Assembly (NCBI GenBank): GCA_019636535.1
Contig: JAHBXK010000005.1
Span: forward strand, 1 to 64,000
Source of the DNA: Phycisphaeraceae bacterium
Lineage (GTDB): Bacteria > Planctomycetota > Phycisphaerae > Phycisphaerales > UBA1924
Direction: 5' to 3'
Length of the DNA: 64,000 bases
The notes beneath the pieces are model-generated. The model searched no databases. It saw only the letters and a list, made by a program, of their open reading frames with translations, and was not told where the DNA came from. Positions 23,273 to 54,211 of the stretch are shown piece by piece. The translations under genes were made by a program, and so were the position numbers. Numbering within the stretch: the stretch's first letter is position 1; every line of letters begins with the position of its first letter.

Positions 23273-25138
23273 CTAGACGCGCGGGCCGGAGTCGTCGAGA
23301 TCGGCGAGTTCGTCCTTGTACTGCTCGCGCAGCGGCTCAACGACCTCGCGGATGAAGCGCTCGGTCTGCTCGACGCTGCGGCCGACGTACTTCATCGGGT
23401 CCATGACGCCCTCCCAGTCGAGTTCGCCCGTTAGTTTCCCGCCGCGGGCGGTGGATTGGAAGTGCGGGTCCGCCTTGAGGCGGTCAAGCAGGTCGTTGTC
23501 GAGACCTTCCTGCTTCACGCGCATGCCCGCGGCCTGGGCGTGGACACGGATGATCTCGTGATAGTGCTGCCGGTCGCCACCGAGTTTCACGCAGGCCATG
23601 AGGATGTTCTCGGTGGCCATGAAGGGGAGTTCGGCCATCAGGTTCTTGCGGACCGTGGCCTCGTGGACGATCAGACCCGACGCGACGTTGTGCATGAGGT
23701 CGAGCGCGCCGTCGAGGGCGAGGAAGGCCTCGGGCAGAGAGAGGCGGCGATTGGAACTGTCGTCGAGCGTTCGCTCCAGCCACTGCGTTGCGGCGGTGTC
23801 GTAGGCGTTGCCGACGAGGTTCATGACGAAGCGCGTCAGGCCGCAGATGCGCTCGCAGCGCATGGGGTTGCGCTTGTACGGCATCGCGCTGGAGCCGATC
23901 TGCTTGTCTTCGAAGGGCTCATCGAGTTCCTTGCGGTTGCAGAGCAGACGGATGTCGGTGGCGATCTTGTGGAGGACGGCGGCGGTGGAGGCGAGGTCGG
24001 CGAGGATGAAGGTGTCGATGACGCGGGGGTAGGTTTGAGAAGTGATTGCAAACGTTGACGGCTCAACGCGTAGTGATTTGAAGATACGCTCTTCGAGCTC
24101 GTGCCATGTATTCGACGATATATCTACAACATCTTGACTGGAGCCAGACATGAACTTTTGAAGCGACGAACGAACACTGGGCAATACAGATTCTAAATGT
24201 GATAAGTACTGATTGAACGTACTATACCAATGCGATTTGTCCCATCCAGCGGCCTGGAGCAGACTGAATGCGCTGGCATTGTCGTCCGCGAGTAGATGGA
24301 TACTGTTTGATCGGTTCAGATCTCTTACAACACGCTCGGCTGTTCGCGCATATTGATAGCGTGTTGTGCCCGGGTCGATTCCTTTGGCAGAACGTTCCCA
24401 TTCAGCGATCGCTGAATAACATGCGCCCAAAGGGCTCTGTTTACGACGTCCTCCCTGTTGAAATGCCACAAAGCTGGCCTGGGTACCCGTTGCCCCACGA
24501 AACCCGCGCAGGTGTATCGTCTCATTCCTACGGCGTTCGCACAAGTAGAGATCATGCGACCAAACGGCGGCGCGGCGACCAATCGTTACGGGTTGGGCAG
24601 GTTGATAGTGGGTGAAGCCCAGACAAGGCACCGACTTCCAACGGTCGGCGAAGGTGGAAAGATCACACGCAACCAACGTCAGTTTTGACATTGCGAGCCG
24701 CACTGCCTCTCGCACCACCAGTAAATCCGCATTGCACACCACGTCCTGGCTCGTCATCCCCAGGTGGATGATGCCCTTGGCCTTCGGGCACGAGTCGCCC
24801 AGCGCGTGCACGTGCGCCATGACGTCGTGCCGCAACTCGCGCTCGTACTTCTCCGCCAACCGGATCTCGTCGTCGGTGATGCCGACCGAGCCGTCGGAGT
24901 TCTTCCGCTCGACGACCGCGCGGAGTTCCTCCACCTGCTCCTTCGTCACCGGCAGGCCCATCTCGTGCTGGGCCTCCGCGACGGCCAGCCAGATCCGCCG
25001 CCACGTGTTGAACTTGTGCCGGGCCGACCACAGCCGCAGCATCCGCTCGCTCGCGTTGCGCGTGGCCAGGGGTGAGACATAGGTGTCGTATGGTGAGGGT
25101 GTCAAGCGAGCGGATGTGTTGCGAGACTTACTAGACAT
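23273..25138 (-). CDS. purB: Adenylosuccinate lyase with a low-GC central block and insertion
   Basis: 621 residues; family members are usually 430-490. Conserved motifs are present: YVSPLATRNASERM, HKFNTWRRIWLAVAEAQ, HLGMTSQDVVCNADLL, FTHYQPAQPVT, TGTQASF, TSQTYPR, the flexible catalytic loop GSSAMPYKRNP (about 415-425) and TLDDSSNRRLSL. The enzyme catalyses two fumarate-releasing steps of purine synthesis. Between TGTQASFVAFQQGG (ends near 230) and LEERIFKSLRVEP (about 348) lie roughly 117 extra residues that the normal family lacks. That region and both conserved flanks (24032-24735) have clearly lower GC. The reading frame is unbroken and catalytic residues remain, so it may be active. 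It lies 9 bp after hicA on the same strand. Confidence 0.88.
   Translation of the reverse strand: MSSKSRNTSARLTPSPYDTYVSPLATRNASERMLRLWSARHKFNTWRRIWLAVAEAQHEMGLPVTKEQVEELRAVVERKNSDGSVGITDDEIRLAEKYERELRHDVMAHVHALGDSCPKAKGIIHLGMTSQDVVCNADLLVVREAVRLAMSKLTLVACDLSTFADRWKSVPCLGFTHYQPAQPVTIGRRAAVWSHDLYLCERRRNETIHLRGFRGATGTQASFVAFQQGGRRKQSPLGACYSAIAEWERSAKGIDPGTTRYQYARTAERVVRDLNRSNSIHLLADDNASAFSLLQAAGWDKSHWYSTFNQYLSHLESVLPSVRSSLQKFMSGSSQDVVDISSNTWHELEERIFKSLRVEPSTFAITSQTYPRVIDTFILADLASTAAVLHKIATDIRLLCNRKELDEPFEDKQIGSSAMPYKRNPMRCERICGLTRFVMNLVGNAYDTAATQWLERTLDDSSNRRLSLPEAFLALDGALDLMHNVASGLIVHEATVRKNLMAELPFMATENILMACVKLGGDRQHYHEIIRVHAQAAGMRVKQEGLDNDLLDRLKADPHFQSTARGGKLTGELDWEGVMDPMKYVGRSVEQTERFIREVVEPLREQYKDELADLDDSGPRV
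24032..24735. other. Low-GC block inside purB
   Basis: GC falls from about 70% on both sides to around 50% here by eye, with stretches such as GTGATTGCAAACGTTGACGG and ATATCTACAACATCTTGACT (minus-strand purB sense not shown). The block contains conserved purB coding as well as the extra ~117 codons, so it is not a simple insertion; the simplest reading is homologous replacement from a lower-GC donor whose gene carried the extra segment, or a native gene that has not fully ameliorated. Edges are approximate. Confidence 0.7.
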
Positions 25139-49211: not shown

Positions 49212-50333
49212 TCACCGAACGCCCGTCATCCCCAGCACCAGCAACTCCAGGTTCCGCTCCGGCTCACCAAAGCCCGACTTCCCCCGCGCATCGGTGTCCA
49301 CGGCCATCTTCAACATCCGCGCGGCCCGCTCCGGCCCAACCGCCTGCGCCCGCCGGAACAGCGTCTCCACGCTCGGCCCCCACAGCCGCAGCGCGCTCAT
49401 CAACTCGCCGCGCGAGGCCCCCTGGCTCAGCCCGCGCGAAATCGTGTGCAACTTCTTAGCCGCGTCTACGCACGACCACGTGATCGGCACCGGATCGTGC
49501 CGCGAAATCTCGAGCAACTCCCGCAACTGCGCCAGCGCCCCCGGCCCGTCTCCCGCCAGCAGACGCTCCTGGATCGTCCAGAACTCGTCCTCGCGCGTCA
49601 CCCCCGTCATCTTCTGCACCAGCGCACCCGTGATCGGCTGCCCCTTGCCCCCAGCCGCCACCGCGAGTTTCTCCAACTCGCTGTCGATCCGACCAAGATC
49701 CGCCCCGACCGACTCCACCAGTAGCGCAGCGGCCTTCGCGTCGATGCTCGATCGGTGCGCGTCCTTGGCCCGCGCCACGGCCCATCGCGTCGCCTCCACT
49801 TCGTTCATCGGCTCGCACTTGACCACCAGCCCGCGCCCGCCCTCCAAGGCCTTGATCGCCTTCTCCAGGTTCCCGCCGCGCCAGATGTTGCACCGCAGCA
49901 CCAGCGTCGCCCCCTCCTCCGGCTGCGCGGCGTAATGCTCCAGCACCTCCCTCGGCGAACTCGGCGCGCTCACCCTCGCCCCCTTGCCCTTCCCCGCCGG
50001 CTTCACCGCCCCCCCTCCCCCGCCCCCGCCCCCCTCATCCTCCTCCCCTTTGAACAGCAGGTCCGCGTTCTCCACCAGCACGATCTTGTACTGGCTCATC
50101 AGCCCCATCGACCGGCACTCGTCCAGCACGTCCGCCAGAATCTTCGCACCGCCCTGCATCGCGTCGAACCGCACCGTGTCGAACCCGTCCTCGCCGTGCG
50201 CCTTCTTGAGCGCGGCCCGCAGGTTCTCCAGGCACTCGTCCTGCAAGCGCCGCTCCTTGCCGTGCAGCACCAGAAAGCGGACCTTTCCGGTCACGTCGCT
50301 CGGCGAGGCCTTGGCCGCGGCTTTGGGGGGCAT
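49212..50333 (-). CDS. holA: DNA polymerase III delta subunit
   Basis: 373 residues from ATG at 50333 (MPPKAAAKASPSDVTGKVRF). The clamp-loader pattern is RFLVLHGKERRLQDECLENL at the start, IVLVENADLLF for the Walker B region, and the C-terminal helical domain with LVESVGADLGRIDSELEKLA and RLLAGDGPGALAQLRELLE. A Gly-rich insertion (a run of eight glycines, about residues 103-110) sits in the first domain. It opens the sliding clamp in the clamp loader. The frame starting at 50486 is longer but lacks a ribosome-binding site. Confidence 0.9.
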   Translation of the reverse strand: MPPKAAAKASPSDVTGKVRFLVLHGKERRLQDECLENLRAALKKAHGEDGFDTVRFDAMQGGAKILADVLDECRSMGLMSQYKIVLVENADLLFKGEEDEGGGGGGGGAVKPAGKGKGARVSAPSSPREVLEHYAAQPEEGATLVLRCNIWRGGNLEKAIKALEGGRGLVVKCEPMNEVEATRWAVARAKDAHRSSIDAKAAALLVESVGADLGRIDSELEKLAVAAGGKGQPITGALVQKMTGVTREDEFWTIQERLLAGDGPGALAQLRELLEISRHDPVPITWSCVDAAKKLHTISRGLSQGASRGELMSALRLWGPSVETLFRRAQAVGPERAARMLKMAVDTDARGKSGFGEPERNLELLVLGMTGVR

Positions 50334-50359: not shown

Positions 50360-50377
50360 GTGTCAACAGTTTGACAC
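50360..50377. promoter_or_regulatory. Inverted repeat between holA and the radical SAM cassette
   Basis: GTGTCAA-cagt-TTGACAC is a perfect 7-bp inverted repeat in the divergent intergenic region, 27 bp upstream of holA. A second short one, GGTTCGC-tgacaa-GCGAACC, lies at 50489-50508. Either could be an operator controlling holA or the cassette. Confidence 0.5.
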
Positions 50378-50548
50378 AGCAAAGGGCCGACTCGCCCGCT
50401 GCGGGAGCCGAAGCAGATGACGCGCGCGGAGGGAGTGATAACACGCGCTCCGGCCAGTCCCTCAAGAACCGTGCAGCGGGTGACAATCCGGTTCGCTGAC
50501 AAGCGAACCACCTTGGGCCGTCGTGTTGTAGAATCTGTGGGTAACCAC

Positions 50549-51445
50549 ATGACCCTCGACCGTGACCATCCTGAGTCGATTCCCACGCTCTTCGCCGGGT
50601 TGAGTGACGCGATCACCACCCAGACGCCCAAGGACCGGCCAACTCGCCTTGGCCTGACAGTGATCGACTACAAGGAGGTCTCCGGTATTCTGACCAAGCC
50701 CAAGGGGTTCATGGCCGGATACGACTTCACGATCAACCCGTACTCGGGCTGCGCGTTCGGCTGTTCGTATTGCTATGCCGCCGCTTTCGCGAGAGACGAA
50801 GAGTCGTCCAGCAACTGGGGCCAGTGGGTCACAGTCAAGGAGAACGCCCTCGACTTGTTGCGTCGGTTGCGCCGTAATCTGTCCGGCAAGTCCATCTATA
50901 TCAGCAGCGTGACCGACCCCTACCAACCGATCGAACGGACACTCGAACTCACACGAGACATCCTGCGCGAACTGGTCCACCATAAACCGCGACTGGTGAT
51001 CCAGACCCGCAGTCCGTTGGTGGCGCGCGACATAGACCTGCTCCAACAGTTCGAGGTCGTGCAGGTCAACATGACCGTGACAACCGATGACGAGGGAGTT
51101 CGTCGCGCATTCGAGCCCGGCTGCCCTTCCAATCAGCAACGGCTCGATGGCATCGCCTTGGTCGCCGCCGCCGGTATCCAGGCGTGCATCACCATGACAC
51201 CACTCTTGCCGGTGATCGACGCGGAAGCGTTCGCAGACACTCTGCTAGCAACCGGCGTGCGTCGCTTTATCGTGCAGCCATTCCACCCCAAGAAGGGTCA
51301 GTACTCGGCCGGAACAAAGGACACGGCCATACCACTAATCAGGCGCTTTCAATGGACGCACAGTCAATACCAAGCGGTCCGAAGCGTGCTTAGCGAGAAG
51401 TTGCCGCAGCTGGGTGAAGGCAACACTGGGTTTGCGTTGGCATGA
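50549..51445 (+). CDS. Radical SAM protein, SplB/Rv2578c-like
   Basis: 298 residues from ATG at 50549; a longer ATG at 50417 starts in DNA with lower coding bias. The 4Fe-4S motif CAFGCSYCY is at residues 68-76 (Cys68, Cys72, Cys75; C-x3-C-x2-C). YISSVTDPYQPIERTLELTR, VIQTRSPLVARDIDLLQQFE and VNMTVTTDDEGVRRAFEPGC are typical of the spore photoproduct lyase-related group. The SplB group repairs thymine dimers, but this short relative lacks the known SplB cysteine near its C-terminus, so the substrate is open. GC is near 58%, below the neighbours. It overlaps the next gene by ATGA. Confidence 0.85.
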   Translation: MTLDRDHPESIPTLFAGLSDAITTQTPKDRPTRLGLTVIDYKEVSGILTKPKGFMAGYDFTINPYSGCAFGCSYCYAAAFARDEESSSNWGQWVTVKENALDLLRRLRRNLSGKSIYISSVTDPYQPIERTLELTRDILRELVHHKPRLVIQTRSPLVARDIDLLQQFEVVQVNMTVTTDDEGVRRAFEPGCPSNQQRLDGIALVAAAGIQACITMTPLLPVIDAEAFADTLLATGVRRFIVQPFHPKKGQYSAGTKDTAIPLIRRFQWTHSQYQAVRSVLSEKLPQLGEGNTGFALA

Positions 51446-52398
51446 ACACGTTTCCATACGATTTCTTGGTGCAAACCGACCGCAGCCGGTTTCTTGCGGA
51501 AATAGTGGGCTTCAGCGCCGCGACCCGACTACGGTTACACACACCATCTGATGTATGGTCCGCCTATACTTCTTTGAGTAGTATATTTGAGAATAATCCA
51601 TTTCATGGAATTGCCCTGCCAGACTATTCCTTGCGTTCAAGTGGTCCGATGTATTCGATACTGTTTCATGGCCGGCGCCTGCACGACGCCATTTGTCATA
51701 TATACACAGCATTAAGGCATTGGCAAACTGATCGTCCGCGTGCCGTGATTGATTACGGAACGGGCACCGGTGCTGTGGTGTGGGCAATGGCGATTCTGTA
51801 TCTTTCTGGGTGTTTGCCGAAACCAAAGCGCCCACTCCAAATCGTCGCATATGACACAAGCGCGGCCATGCTTGACGAAGCCAAGGCTTTGTGGCATGAC
51901 TTTGCATGCCGCGCCTCTCGCGTTCGGGAAATGGTTGATGTGCAGTGGACGTGTGACCCGTCTGCTGATGTAAGAATCGACATTACAGATGACCCACTCG
52001 TAATATTCGCAAGCTATCCGCTGCCAAGTGCTGCACAAATAGAGTTTGATTGTCAGATTCTGTTCCGCTATGTCTCAGAGCGGGCGTGGAATCATTTTGC
52101 ACTTTGGTCTTCGCCAATGAAAATGGGGCACGATCAATTGCGACGCCATGCCGAACGCGCATTGGGGCATGGGGGTTGTAATGTGAATTTGCATCGCGAC
52201 ATTGATAGCCCATTTTGGAGAGACAAGATGGCTTGTAAAAGATGCAGGCGGTGCTTTGAGGAAGTTGTCAGGTGCTGGAAGAACGATAGTTTTCGTGCGT
52301 ACGTGCTTGGCGCGATTGACCGACGCATGGGCGATTTTAGCTGGAAGTGCACGCTGCCAAGCCACCCAATGACATGCTGGACCAACAAGAGGCGGTAA
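51442..52398 (+). CDS. Class I methyltransferase-fold protein paired with the radical SAM gene
   Basis: 318 residues. A methyltransferase-like nucleotide fold is visible: AVIDYGTGTGAVVWAMAIL (motif I, about 101-119) and IVAYDTSAAMLDEAKALWHD with an acidic position near Asp138. The later motifs are not those of a known family. A cysteine-rich patch, CKRCRRCFEEVVRC, lies near residue 263. GC is near 48-50% and codon use is very unlike the surrounding genes, indicating recent transfer. The ATGA overlap with the radical SAM gene makes co-translation likely. Modification of DNA, RNA or protein cannot be distinguished. Confidence 0.7.
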   Translation: MNTFPYDFLVQTDRSRFLAEIVGFSAATRLRLHTPSDVWSAYTSLSSIFENNPFHGIALPDYSLRSSGPMYSILFHGRRLHDAICHIYTALRHWQTDRPRAVIDYGTGTGAVVWAMAILYLSGCLPKPKRPLQIVAYDTSAAMLDEAKALWHDFACRASRVREMVDVQWTCDPSADVRIDITDDPLVIFASYPLPSAAQIEFDCQILFRYVSERAWNHFALWSSPMKMGHDQLRRHAERALGHGGCNVNLHRDIDSPFWRDKMACKRCRRCFEEVVRCWKNDSFRAYVLGAIDRRMGDFSWKCTLPSHPMTCWTNKRR

Positions 52399-52402
52399 GC
52401 GA

Positions 52403-54211
52403 GTGGTTCGCGCTAACTATTCGCGGGCCACTTTCCCAGCCGTACCCTTCCCCGTGCTCCTCCTCTCCGTCATCCAAGGCCCCGACAAGGGTCGCACCTT
52501 CCAACTCCCCGCCGATGAGCCCCAACTCATCGGCCGCTCCAGCGAGGCTCTCCCCCTCTCCGACAACACCGTCTCGCGCCGGCACGCCGAACTCACCCCC
52601 GACCGCGGCGAGTGGTTCGTCCGCGACCTCAACTCGCAGAACGGAACCCACGTCAACGGCGTCGCCATCCGCGAGCGAACCAAACTCCGGCCGGGCGATC
52701 AGGTCCGCTGCGGAAGCACCCTCTTCGTCTTCGGCGGCGGCGAGCCGCTCGACCAGCGCGAAGACCTCGACCTCGTCCGCGTCCTCCAGCCCGACCAGAT
52801 CGACGCCGAGATCGAGCGAACCCTCGCCAGCAACGACGACAGCGTCATCATGGCCGAGCCCGAGCCGCGCGCGGCCGCACTCCACCAACTCCAACTCATC
52901 TACCAACTCACCGCCCTTACCACCACCCTCACCGACCGCGACGCCCTCCTCACCGCCGTCCTCGAACTGGTCTTCAACGAGTTCAAGCCCGAACGCGGCT
53001 TCATCGTCCTCGCCGACACACCCGCCGATGCGCCCCCCGCCACGCCACTCCCCGCGCAGTTCCCGCTCCCCGAGTTCCGCACCGCCGTCGTCCGCCACCG
53101 CACACCACCCAAAGACCGCAAGGACGCGCGCATCCACGTCTCGCGCACCATCCTCCAGCACGCCTTCCGATCCGGCGAGGGTGTCCTCAGTTCAAACGCC
53201 ATGAGCGACCCGCGCTTCGCCAAGGGCGACAGCGTCCAGCAGTTCAAGATCCGCTCGGCCCTCTGCTCCCCCATCGAGTTCCAGAACCGCCGCTTCGGCG
53301 CCATCTACATCGACTCCTCCATCGCCAACTACACCTTCACCCAGGACCAGCTCTCCCTCCTCAACGCCATCGCCCGACACACCGGCCTCGCGCTCGCCAA
53401 CGCCGAGGCCTACGCCAAGAAACTCCAGACCGAGCGACTCGCCGCCGTCGGAGAGACCGTCGCCAGCCTCTCACACTCCATCAAGAACATCCTCCAGGGT
53501 CTCCGCGGCGGGGCCGACGTCGTCGACATGGGCCTCACCAAGGAAGACCTCAAGGTCGCCCGCGGCGGGTGGACCATCCTCAAACGAAACGTCGACCGCA
53601 TCATGGGCCTCACGCTCAACATGCTCGCCTACTCGCGCCAACGCACCATCGAGGCCGAACTCACACCCATCACGCCCCTGCTCGAAGAGTGCGCCCAACT
53701 CCTCTCCGATCAGTGCGCAGCGCGCCAGATCGCCATGATCCTCGACGCCGACCCCGAGATCCCACCCATCCCCCTCGACGCAGCGCTCATGCACCAGGCC
53801 GTCGTCAACCTGCTCGTCAACGCCGTCGAGGCCGTCGAGCCCGCCAAGGGCGCTGTCACCATCCGCGCGTCCTACCTCCCCGCCACCAACCCAGCCGAAC
53901 GCTCCGCCGTCCGCATCGACGTCATCGACAACGGCCCCGGCATCGCCCCCGACCGTCACGCCCGAATCTTCCAGCCCTTCCAGACCACCAAGGGCCTCCG
54001 CGGCACGGGCCTCGGCCTCGCCGTCACCAAGCGCATCATCGAAGAGCACGCCGGCAGCATCTACCTCCGCTCCGCCGAGGGCCGCGGCGCAACCTTCACC
54101 GTCCTCCTCCCCGCCGACGCCCCCGACGACGGCCGGACCATCGATCCGTCCGACACCGCGGGCGTACAGCCGCTCCCGCCCCTCGAGCCGGGCGCGCTCA
54201 ACGACCATTGA
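52403..54211 (+). CDS. FHA-GAF sensor histidine kinase
   Basis: 602 residues from GTG at 52403; a GTG at 52454 (LLLSVIQGPDKGRTFQLPAD) is the more conserved-looking start. Domains in order: FHA (about 20-115, with IGRSSEALPLSDNTVSRRHA and LNSQNGTHVNG), GAF (about 160-335), HisKA-like helix with LSHSIKNILQGLRGG (phospho-His near 355), and a HATPase with NLLVNAVEAVE (N box), DNGPGIAPD and GLRGTGLGLAVTKRIIEEH (G boxes). It should sense a phosphopeptide and a small ligand, then phosphorylate a response regulator not present here. Its first 15 codons lie at the end of the low-GC cassette, so its 5' end may have been rebuilt by the insertion. Confidence 0.85.
   Translation: MVRANYSRATFPAVPFPVLLLSVIQGPDKGRTFQLPADEPQLIGRSSEALPLSDNTVSRRHAELTPDRGEWFVRDLNSQNGTHVNGVAIRERTKLRPGDQVRCGSTLFVFGGGEPLDQREDLDLVRVLQPDQIDAEIERTLASNDDSVIMAEPEPRAAALHQLQLIYQLTALTTTLTDRDALLTAVLELVFNEFKPERGFIVLADTPADAPPATPLPAQFPLPEFRTAVVRHRTPPKDRKDARIHVSRTILQHAFRSGEGVLSSNAMSDPRFAKGDSVQQFKIRSALCSPIEFQNRRFGAIYIDSSIANYTFTQDQLSLLNAIARHTGLALANAEAYAKKLQTERLAAVGETVASLSHSIKNILQGLRGGADVVDMGLTKEDLKVARGGWTILKRNVDRIMGLTLNMLAYSRQRTIEAELTPITPLLEECAQLLSDQCAARQIAMILDADPEIPPIPLDAALMHQAVVNLLVNAVEAVEPAKGAVTIRASYLPATNPAERSAVRIDVIDNGPGIAPDRHARIFQPFQTTKGLRGTGLGLAVTKRIIEEHAGSIYLRSAEGRGATFTVLLPADAPDDGRTIDPSDTAGVQPLPPLEPGALNDH

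Follow-up and report, generated by a model that had tools for sequence, protein, structure and literature searches.

We report a two-gene cassette in the genome of a Phycisphaeraceae bacterium (assembly GCA_019636535.1), located in a stretch of 64,000 nucleotides (contig JAHBXK010000005.1, positions 1 to 64,000, forward strand) that we call the window. The cassette encodes a radical S-adenosylmethionine (rSAM) protein and a methyltransferase-fold partner, and it is an insertion between holA and a histidine kinase gene. It is best read as a horizontally mobile two-component module in its minimal form, which has no helicase. The rSAM/partner family is widespread and apparently undescribed; no description of an rSAM and methyltransferase-fold pair was found in the open-access literature. 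We give an even chance to the proposal that the module joins a constant radical catalyst to a variable target-recognition subunit and acts on nucleic acid, probably in defense.

Pairing of the rSAM and partner genes

A scan of genome contigs with the conserved C-terminal region of the rSAM protein yielded 80 loci, and in 61 of them, unrelated phyla included, a profile search detected a homologous partner with the methyltransferase fold, either next to the rSAM gene or fused to it. The original prediction, made from the sequence of the window alone, had looked to regular adjacency in unrelated genomes as the sign of a system, and this is what the count revealed. The paired loci have four layouts. 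In type I, the rSAM gene is followed by a methyltransferase fused to a UvrD-type helicase (approximately 820 amino acids [aa]), with Walker A and DExQD motifs present in 29/29 helicases; the hosts are mainly Bacteroidota, with some Planctomycetota, Balneolota, Rhodothermota, and Actinomycetota. Type II, to which the window and loci L064, L065, and L066 belong, has the rSAM gene followed by a stand-alone methyltransferase of 305-351 aa, and the four rSAM proteins form one clade with support of 100/100. The order is reversed in type III, with a stand-alone partner preceding the rSAM gene, mainly in Chloroflexota and also in metagenome-assembled genomes (MAGs) of Poribacteria, Pseudomonadota, Gemmatimonadota, and Acidobacteriota. 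Type IV is a single fused open reading frame (ORF) of 610-619 aa in Thermoanaerobaculia (L135/L136). Many type III copies (L103-L143) are in MAGs of lineages known to occur in sponges and in the sea, namely Poribacteria, Dehalococcoidia/SAR202, and Caldilineaceae.

The 4-base overlap between the two genes of the window recurs with the rSAM gene first in L064, L065, L066, L081, L085, L086, L090, and L124, and in reversed gene order in L105, L112, L115, L132, L134, L138, and L141. Distance matrices of rSAM and partner proteins are correlated within type I (Spearman 0.61) and type III (0.77), and 0/500 permutations gave values as high. Profile comparisons among the type I, II, and III partners (hhalign, 98-99.7%) show that all three are homologous to one another, demonstrating common ancestry at the level of sequence profiles. 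No partner was found near any of 57 more distant rSAM relatives from the phylum search and viral contigs, part of which are loci with flanks of only 1.5 kb. Same-family rSAM relatives that lack a detectable partner (L070, L088, L097, L100, L101, L108, L111, and L125) are largely from Chloroflexota and may function on their own or together with a different protein.

Fast divergence of the partner

The partner changes much faster than the rSAM protein, most of all in its C-terminal half. Among pairs of closely related loci, the partner was less conserved than the rSAM protein in all but one, and mostly more so in the C-terminal half. For example, L115 and L117 share 99% identity in the rSAM protein, compared to 70% in the partner (61% in its C-terminal half), with flanking DNA mostly 96-100% identical; in the fused proteins L135 and L136, the rSAM half is 98.7% identical and the methyltransferase half 81%. 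Outside the variable stretch, both genes are under purifying selection. A diversity-generating retroelement was considered as the source of this variability and rejected, as the locus contains no template repeat and the substitution spectrum is transition-rich.

Insertion and mobility

In five relatives, the cassette is absent and holA directly adjoins the kinase gene in divergent orientation: a genome of the same genus (G343/L231), three family members (L216-L218), and one relative at the order level (L230). It is this empty site in the same-genus genome and four other relatives that identifies the cassette as an insertion. The occurrence of the family is patchy, with a match (E<=1e-60) in 3 of 397 genomes from the class. 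The claim that the pair was imported is supported by the empty site, the low GC content, this patchy occurrence, and the adjacency of the two genes in unrelated phyla. No convincing direct repeats were seen at the insertion flanks.

A search of the phylum found an rSAM protein 59% identical to that of the window in genome G172, where the next gene encodes a protein of 812 aa with an N-terminus similar to the window partner. The same arrangement is found on the conjugative Runella plasmid pRUNSL02, in which the second gene is annotated as a UvrD-helicase. The sequence of the window partner, searched in phages, plasmids, and viral contigs, gave no match, and the rSAM relatives from viral contigs have no partner. 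One viral/plasmid-like contig (L035:7938-8867) carries a related rSAM gene (47%) between a helicase gene and other DNA-metabolism genes, without a partner.

The cassette in the window

The cassette and its surroundings comprise the following features, given with the evidence for each.

49212..50333, minus strand: holA, left flank of the insertion; adjoins the kinase gene in L216, L217, L218, L230, and L231
50334..50548, plus strand: intergenic region 5' of the cassette (sequence)
50360-50377: palindrome GTGTCAA-CAGT-TTGACAC with 7-bp arms, between the holA and rSAM genes, which are divergent (sequence)
50492-50507: TTCGCtgacaaGCGAA in the intergenic region 5' of the cassette (sequence)
50549..51445, plus strand: rSAM protein, 298 aa, SplB/COG1533-like (PF04055, E 1.6e-17)
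50750..50773, plus strand: CxxxCxxC cluster motif (C68, C72, and C75 of the 298-aa protein), present in 79/79 family members
51442..51445, plus strand: ATGA overlap of the rSAM and partner genes (sequence)
51442..52398, plus strand: methyltransferase-fold partner, 318 aa, type II, without helicase (AlphaFold2 model, fold match, profile homology)
51751..51774, plus strand: putative S-adenosylmethionine (SAM)-binding motif I of the partner, D104-x-G-x-G-x-G-A111 (DYGTGTGA; alignment of 46 partners)
52234..52254, plus strand: CKRCRRC patch (partner residues 265-271), window copy only (absent in relatives)
52403..54211, plus strand: FHA/GAF/histidine-kinase gene, right flank (59-75% identical orthologues in family members; empty site)

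The original prediction described two genes with an ATGA overlap between holA and a histidine kinase gene, and both ORFs and the overlap are present as described. Its bounds for the cassette, 50417-52430, need to be narrowed. The longest rSAM ORF would start at 50417, but the ATG at 50549 is the likelier start, given that the L064 relative, also of type II, starts at the matching residue; the partner gene ends at 52398. Translation of the two genes is probably coupled via the overlap. The GC content is 59.6% in the rSAM gene (GC at third codon positions [GC3] 0.75) and 51.2% in the partner gene (GC3 0.52), compared to 68.3% in the window, and the flanking genes have GC3 of 0.89-0.91. The partner gene, the lowest-GC 900-base stretch of the 64-kb window, is well below its surroundings as predicted, although not at the 48-50% GC that had been claimed.

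The palindrome upstream of the cassette is a possible operator. Elsewhere in the window, a 621-aa purB-like (adenylosuccinate lyase) ORF (23273-25138, minus strand) has an apparent in-frame insertion of approximately 130 aa, recognized by eye, past which the usual sequence seemingly resumes; the region at approximately 23.8-24.9 kb ranks second lowest in GC content within the window.

The methyltransferase-fold partner

The second gene had been described as an unusual methyltransferase-fold protein with motif I and no known family pattern, and each part of this description holds. The window partner reached no family cut-off in Pfam or NCBIfam. Its AlphaFold2 model (predicted local distance difference test score 74.8, predicted template modeling score 0.77) shows a Rossmann methyltransferase fold and N-terminal helices. 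In a VIA fold search, METTL17/Rsm22 structures or mitoribosome complexes containing them took all nine top places (Z 15.4-17.5), and the next fold followed at Z 14.0; the best match (Z 17.5) extended over 246 residues and included the N-terminal helices. Profile comparison with hhalign gave 94% for bacterial Rsm22, 1.1% for PrmC, and 0.2% for TcmP, and a profile search of PDB placed METTL17 first, though weakly (E 0.083). The predicted fold is nearest METTL17/Rsm22. TcmP was ruled out by the profile comparison and by the lack of a TIGR04474 match.

Across 46 partners, G108 of motif I is invariant and D104, G106, and A111 are each present in >=90%. The window partner retains Y62, Y71, D104-x-G-x-G, D138-x-S, M143, R269, and W279. 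The cysteine patch CKRCRRC noted in the original prediction is real in the window but is no feature of the family: none of the relatives has it, and any CxxC occurs in just one other of the 46 partners, at an unrelated position. On the same grounds, the patch was ruled out as a conserved metal site or as a cluster of the METTL17 type. The 46 partners have no conserved cysteine column, and the four-cysteine site of Rsm22 is missing; the window partner did not match the Pfam Rsm22 model (PF09243) at E<=10. Given the missing cluster cysteines, we describe the partner as Rsm22-like rather than as Rsm22.

The radical SAM protein

Only the generic Radical_SAM model (PF04055) reaches its cut-off for the window rSAM protein in Pfam and NCBIfam, and both window proteins gave only weak or functionless matches in PADLOC and PHROGs. 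The radical SAM motif was found to be complete, as predicted. The protein had been called SplB-type, which is supported by profile comparison at the superfamily level (hhalign, 96.9% with spore photoproduct lyase [SPL]-like proteins) and not at the family level, as it scores 11.7 bits against the NCBIfam SPL model TIGR04070 (cut-off 400; a Runella homologue scores 23.9). Scores against PA0069 (127.6 bits, cut-off 360), Rv2578c (108, cut-off 430), and rSAM_mob_pairB (105, cut-off 410) also fall short. The window family shares the radical SAM domain, and homology at the level of the superfamily, with SplB (COG1533), PA0069, Rv2578c, and rSAM_mob_pairB. It differs from them in having a regular partner gene and two invariant cysteines of its own beyond the cluster motif, C192 (79/79 members) and C213 (78/79), which are candidates for a catalytic role. 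SPL-like proteins in the alignment have Thr and a non-Cys residue at these positions.

The hydrogen-donor cysteine of Bacillus subtilis SPL is Cys141. At the corresponding site, the window protein reads YISSVTDPYQP, without cysteine, and the SPL-like proteins in the alignment themselves lack this residue. In the AlphaFold2 model of the fused protein from L135, the rSAM half is resolved and the methyltransferase half is not. A VIA search with the rSAM half placed lipoyl synthase (Z 12.1) and SPL structures (Z 11.7) among the top matches, tied and not separated from each other.

Genomic context and likeness to known systems

Type I copies often lie in defense islands, beside genes of BREX, Dnd, type I restriction, GmrSD, or Druantia-like systems. 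Within three genes of them we found PglZ and BrxL (L079), BrxL (L080), HsdR (L083 and L095), DndC (L092), a GmrSD-like protein (L077), an OLD/AriA-type ATPase (L075), and a DruF-like protein (L078), and the copy on the Runella conjugative plasmid has HsdR and HipA as neighbors. The 121 neighbors of type I copies matched 397 PADLOC models, compared to 39 among 121 neighbors of types II-IV, a rough contrast since it counts models, many of them redundant. Defense-island siting applies to many type I relatives but not to the window copy or most type II and III copies. The earlier suggestion of a defense role is thus favored by the context of the helicase-fused relatives and not by that of the window.

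The nearest described kind of pair is found in the PADLOC candidate systems PDC-M30/M41, which consist of TcmP (TIGR04474) and DUF5131/Gp37-Gp68 (PF07505). These are likewise two genes, a three-cysteine radical-SAM-like protein and a separate partner, and are listed as candidate defense. However, the gene families differ: the window partner is not TcmP, the rSAM protein scores 14.5 bits against DUF5131 (cut-off 28.9; hhalign, 30.6% over 35 columns), and the present family includes helicase fusions in type I. On these profile scores, neither gene qualifies the window pair as a member of PDC-M30/M41. A TcmP and DUF5131 pair occurs elsewhere in the same genome (G000:C20:2703-4312; L167, L209), such that two rSAM-plus-partner pairs coexist. 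With Rsm22/METTL17 (PF09243), the partner shares the overall fold, N-terminal helices included, and an alignable motif I-II region; it differs in lacking the four-cysteine Fe-S/Zn site, in its length of approximately 320 aa, and in being paired with an rSAM gene. By analogy, a constant catalyst with a variable recognition partner resembles the type I restriction specificity subunit HsdS, to which there is no homology.

Discussion

In the mechanism that we infer, the rSAM protein would be the conserved catalyst, built on an SplB-like barrel, and its extra cysteines could relay a hydrogen atom or carry a covalent intermediate. The partner would bind SAM via its conserved N-terminal half, while the fast-evolving C-terminal half would pick the target. 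In type I, the superfamily 1 (SF1, UvrD-like) helicase would open or translocate on nucleic acid, giving access to the strand; types II-IV would manage without it. The outcome would be radical modification or damage of nucleic acid selected by the partner and, in many hosts, a role in resisting phages or other mobile elements. Viperins are the main known example of radical SAM chemistry in bacterial immunity. We tentatively raise, as a serious possibility falling short of an even chance, that the family is an undescribed prokaryotic immune system in which the constant rSAM protein modifies or damages invader nucleic acid and a hypervariable Rsm22-like subunit chooses the targets, with or without an SF1 helicase, the window holding the minimal two-gene version.

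Several observations weigh against our main proposal. Nineteen of the 80 rSAM relatives have no detectable partner, so the rSAM protein may work alone or with another partner in those loci. Synonymous divergence (dS) is raised together with nonsynonymous divergence (dN) in the variable stretch of the partner gene, so exchange with divergent alleles may contribute alongside selection, and the C-terminal part of the partner model is of low confidence. The window copy, L064, and L066 sit among housekeeping genes, not defense genes.

One alternative, which we consider unlikely, is modification of RNA or the ribosome, perhaps in infection or antibiotic stress, with the partner guiding the rSAM protein to rRNA or tRNA. 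The two extra cysteines would then serve, as in RlmN/Cfr, to methylate or otherwise modify a base. The two invariant non-cluster cysteines and the resemblance of the partner to METTL17/Rsm22 by fold, profile, and PDB search are consistent with this, as is the action of Rsm22-type proteins on mitochondrial RNA (PMC8171064; PMC11046306). However, the Rsm22 cluster cysteines are missing, a conserved rRNA target would need no variable partner, and type I carries a UvrD-type helicase, which points to DNA. Repair of a DNA lesion is quite unlikely in our judgment. In that scenario, the rSAM protein would reverse a photoproduct as SPL does, the partner would locate the lesion, and the helicase would open the DNA. 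The homology of the rSAM protein to SPL-like proteins and the SPL structures among its top fold matches point in this direction, and splB genes are SOS-regulated in Bacteroidetes (PMC8565304). Yet the NCBIfam SPL score is far below its cut-off, and a lesion is chemically constant, which does not explain why the partner diverges so fast. We found no Bacteroidetes SOS box (CTAA-N5-TTAG or GGA-N5-TCC) upstream of the type I cassettes, and we rejected SOS regulation of the cassette for want of such LexA boxes. The defense-island context argues against both RNA modification and lesion repair.

A toxin-antitoxin-like or abortive pair, with a toxic rSAM protein restrained by a fast-evolving, phage-sensing partner, would account for the overlapping genes, the mobility, the variable partner, and the HipA-type neighbors on the Runella plasmid. 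We regard it as very unlikely, given that the SAM motif of the partner is intact, that the partner occurs in fusions with a helicase or with the rSAM protein itself, and that 19 rSAM relatives have no detectable partner. A last alternative is that the window partner is a truncated remnant of a helicase fusion, or that the two genes are neighbors by chance; most downstream relatives are fusions of approximately 820 aa, and the window gene has no helicase. This is hardly credible: the three type II relatives in the same rSAM clade are of the same stand-alone length, type III partners stand alone too, and conserved residues are retained up to W279. The second gene is therefore not the broken fragment that the original prediction had named as a possible refutation.

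If the module indeed couples a constant radical catalyst to a rapidly changing adaptor of methyltransferase shape, with a helicase as an optional part, it would represent new chemistry for defense. It would also provide a function for many unannotated pairs of "radical SAM protein" and "UvrD-helicase domain protein" genes, and would place the METTL17/Rsm22 fold, which is poorly understood, in a bacterial context.

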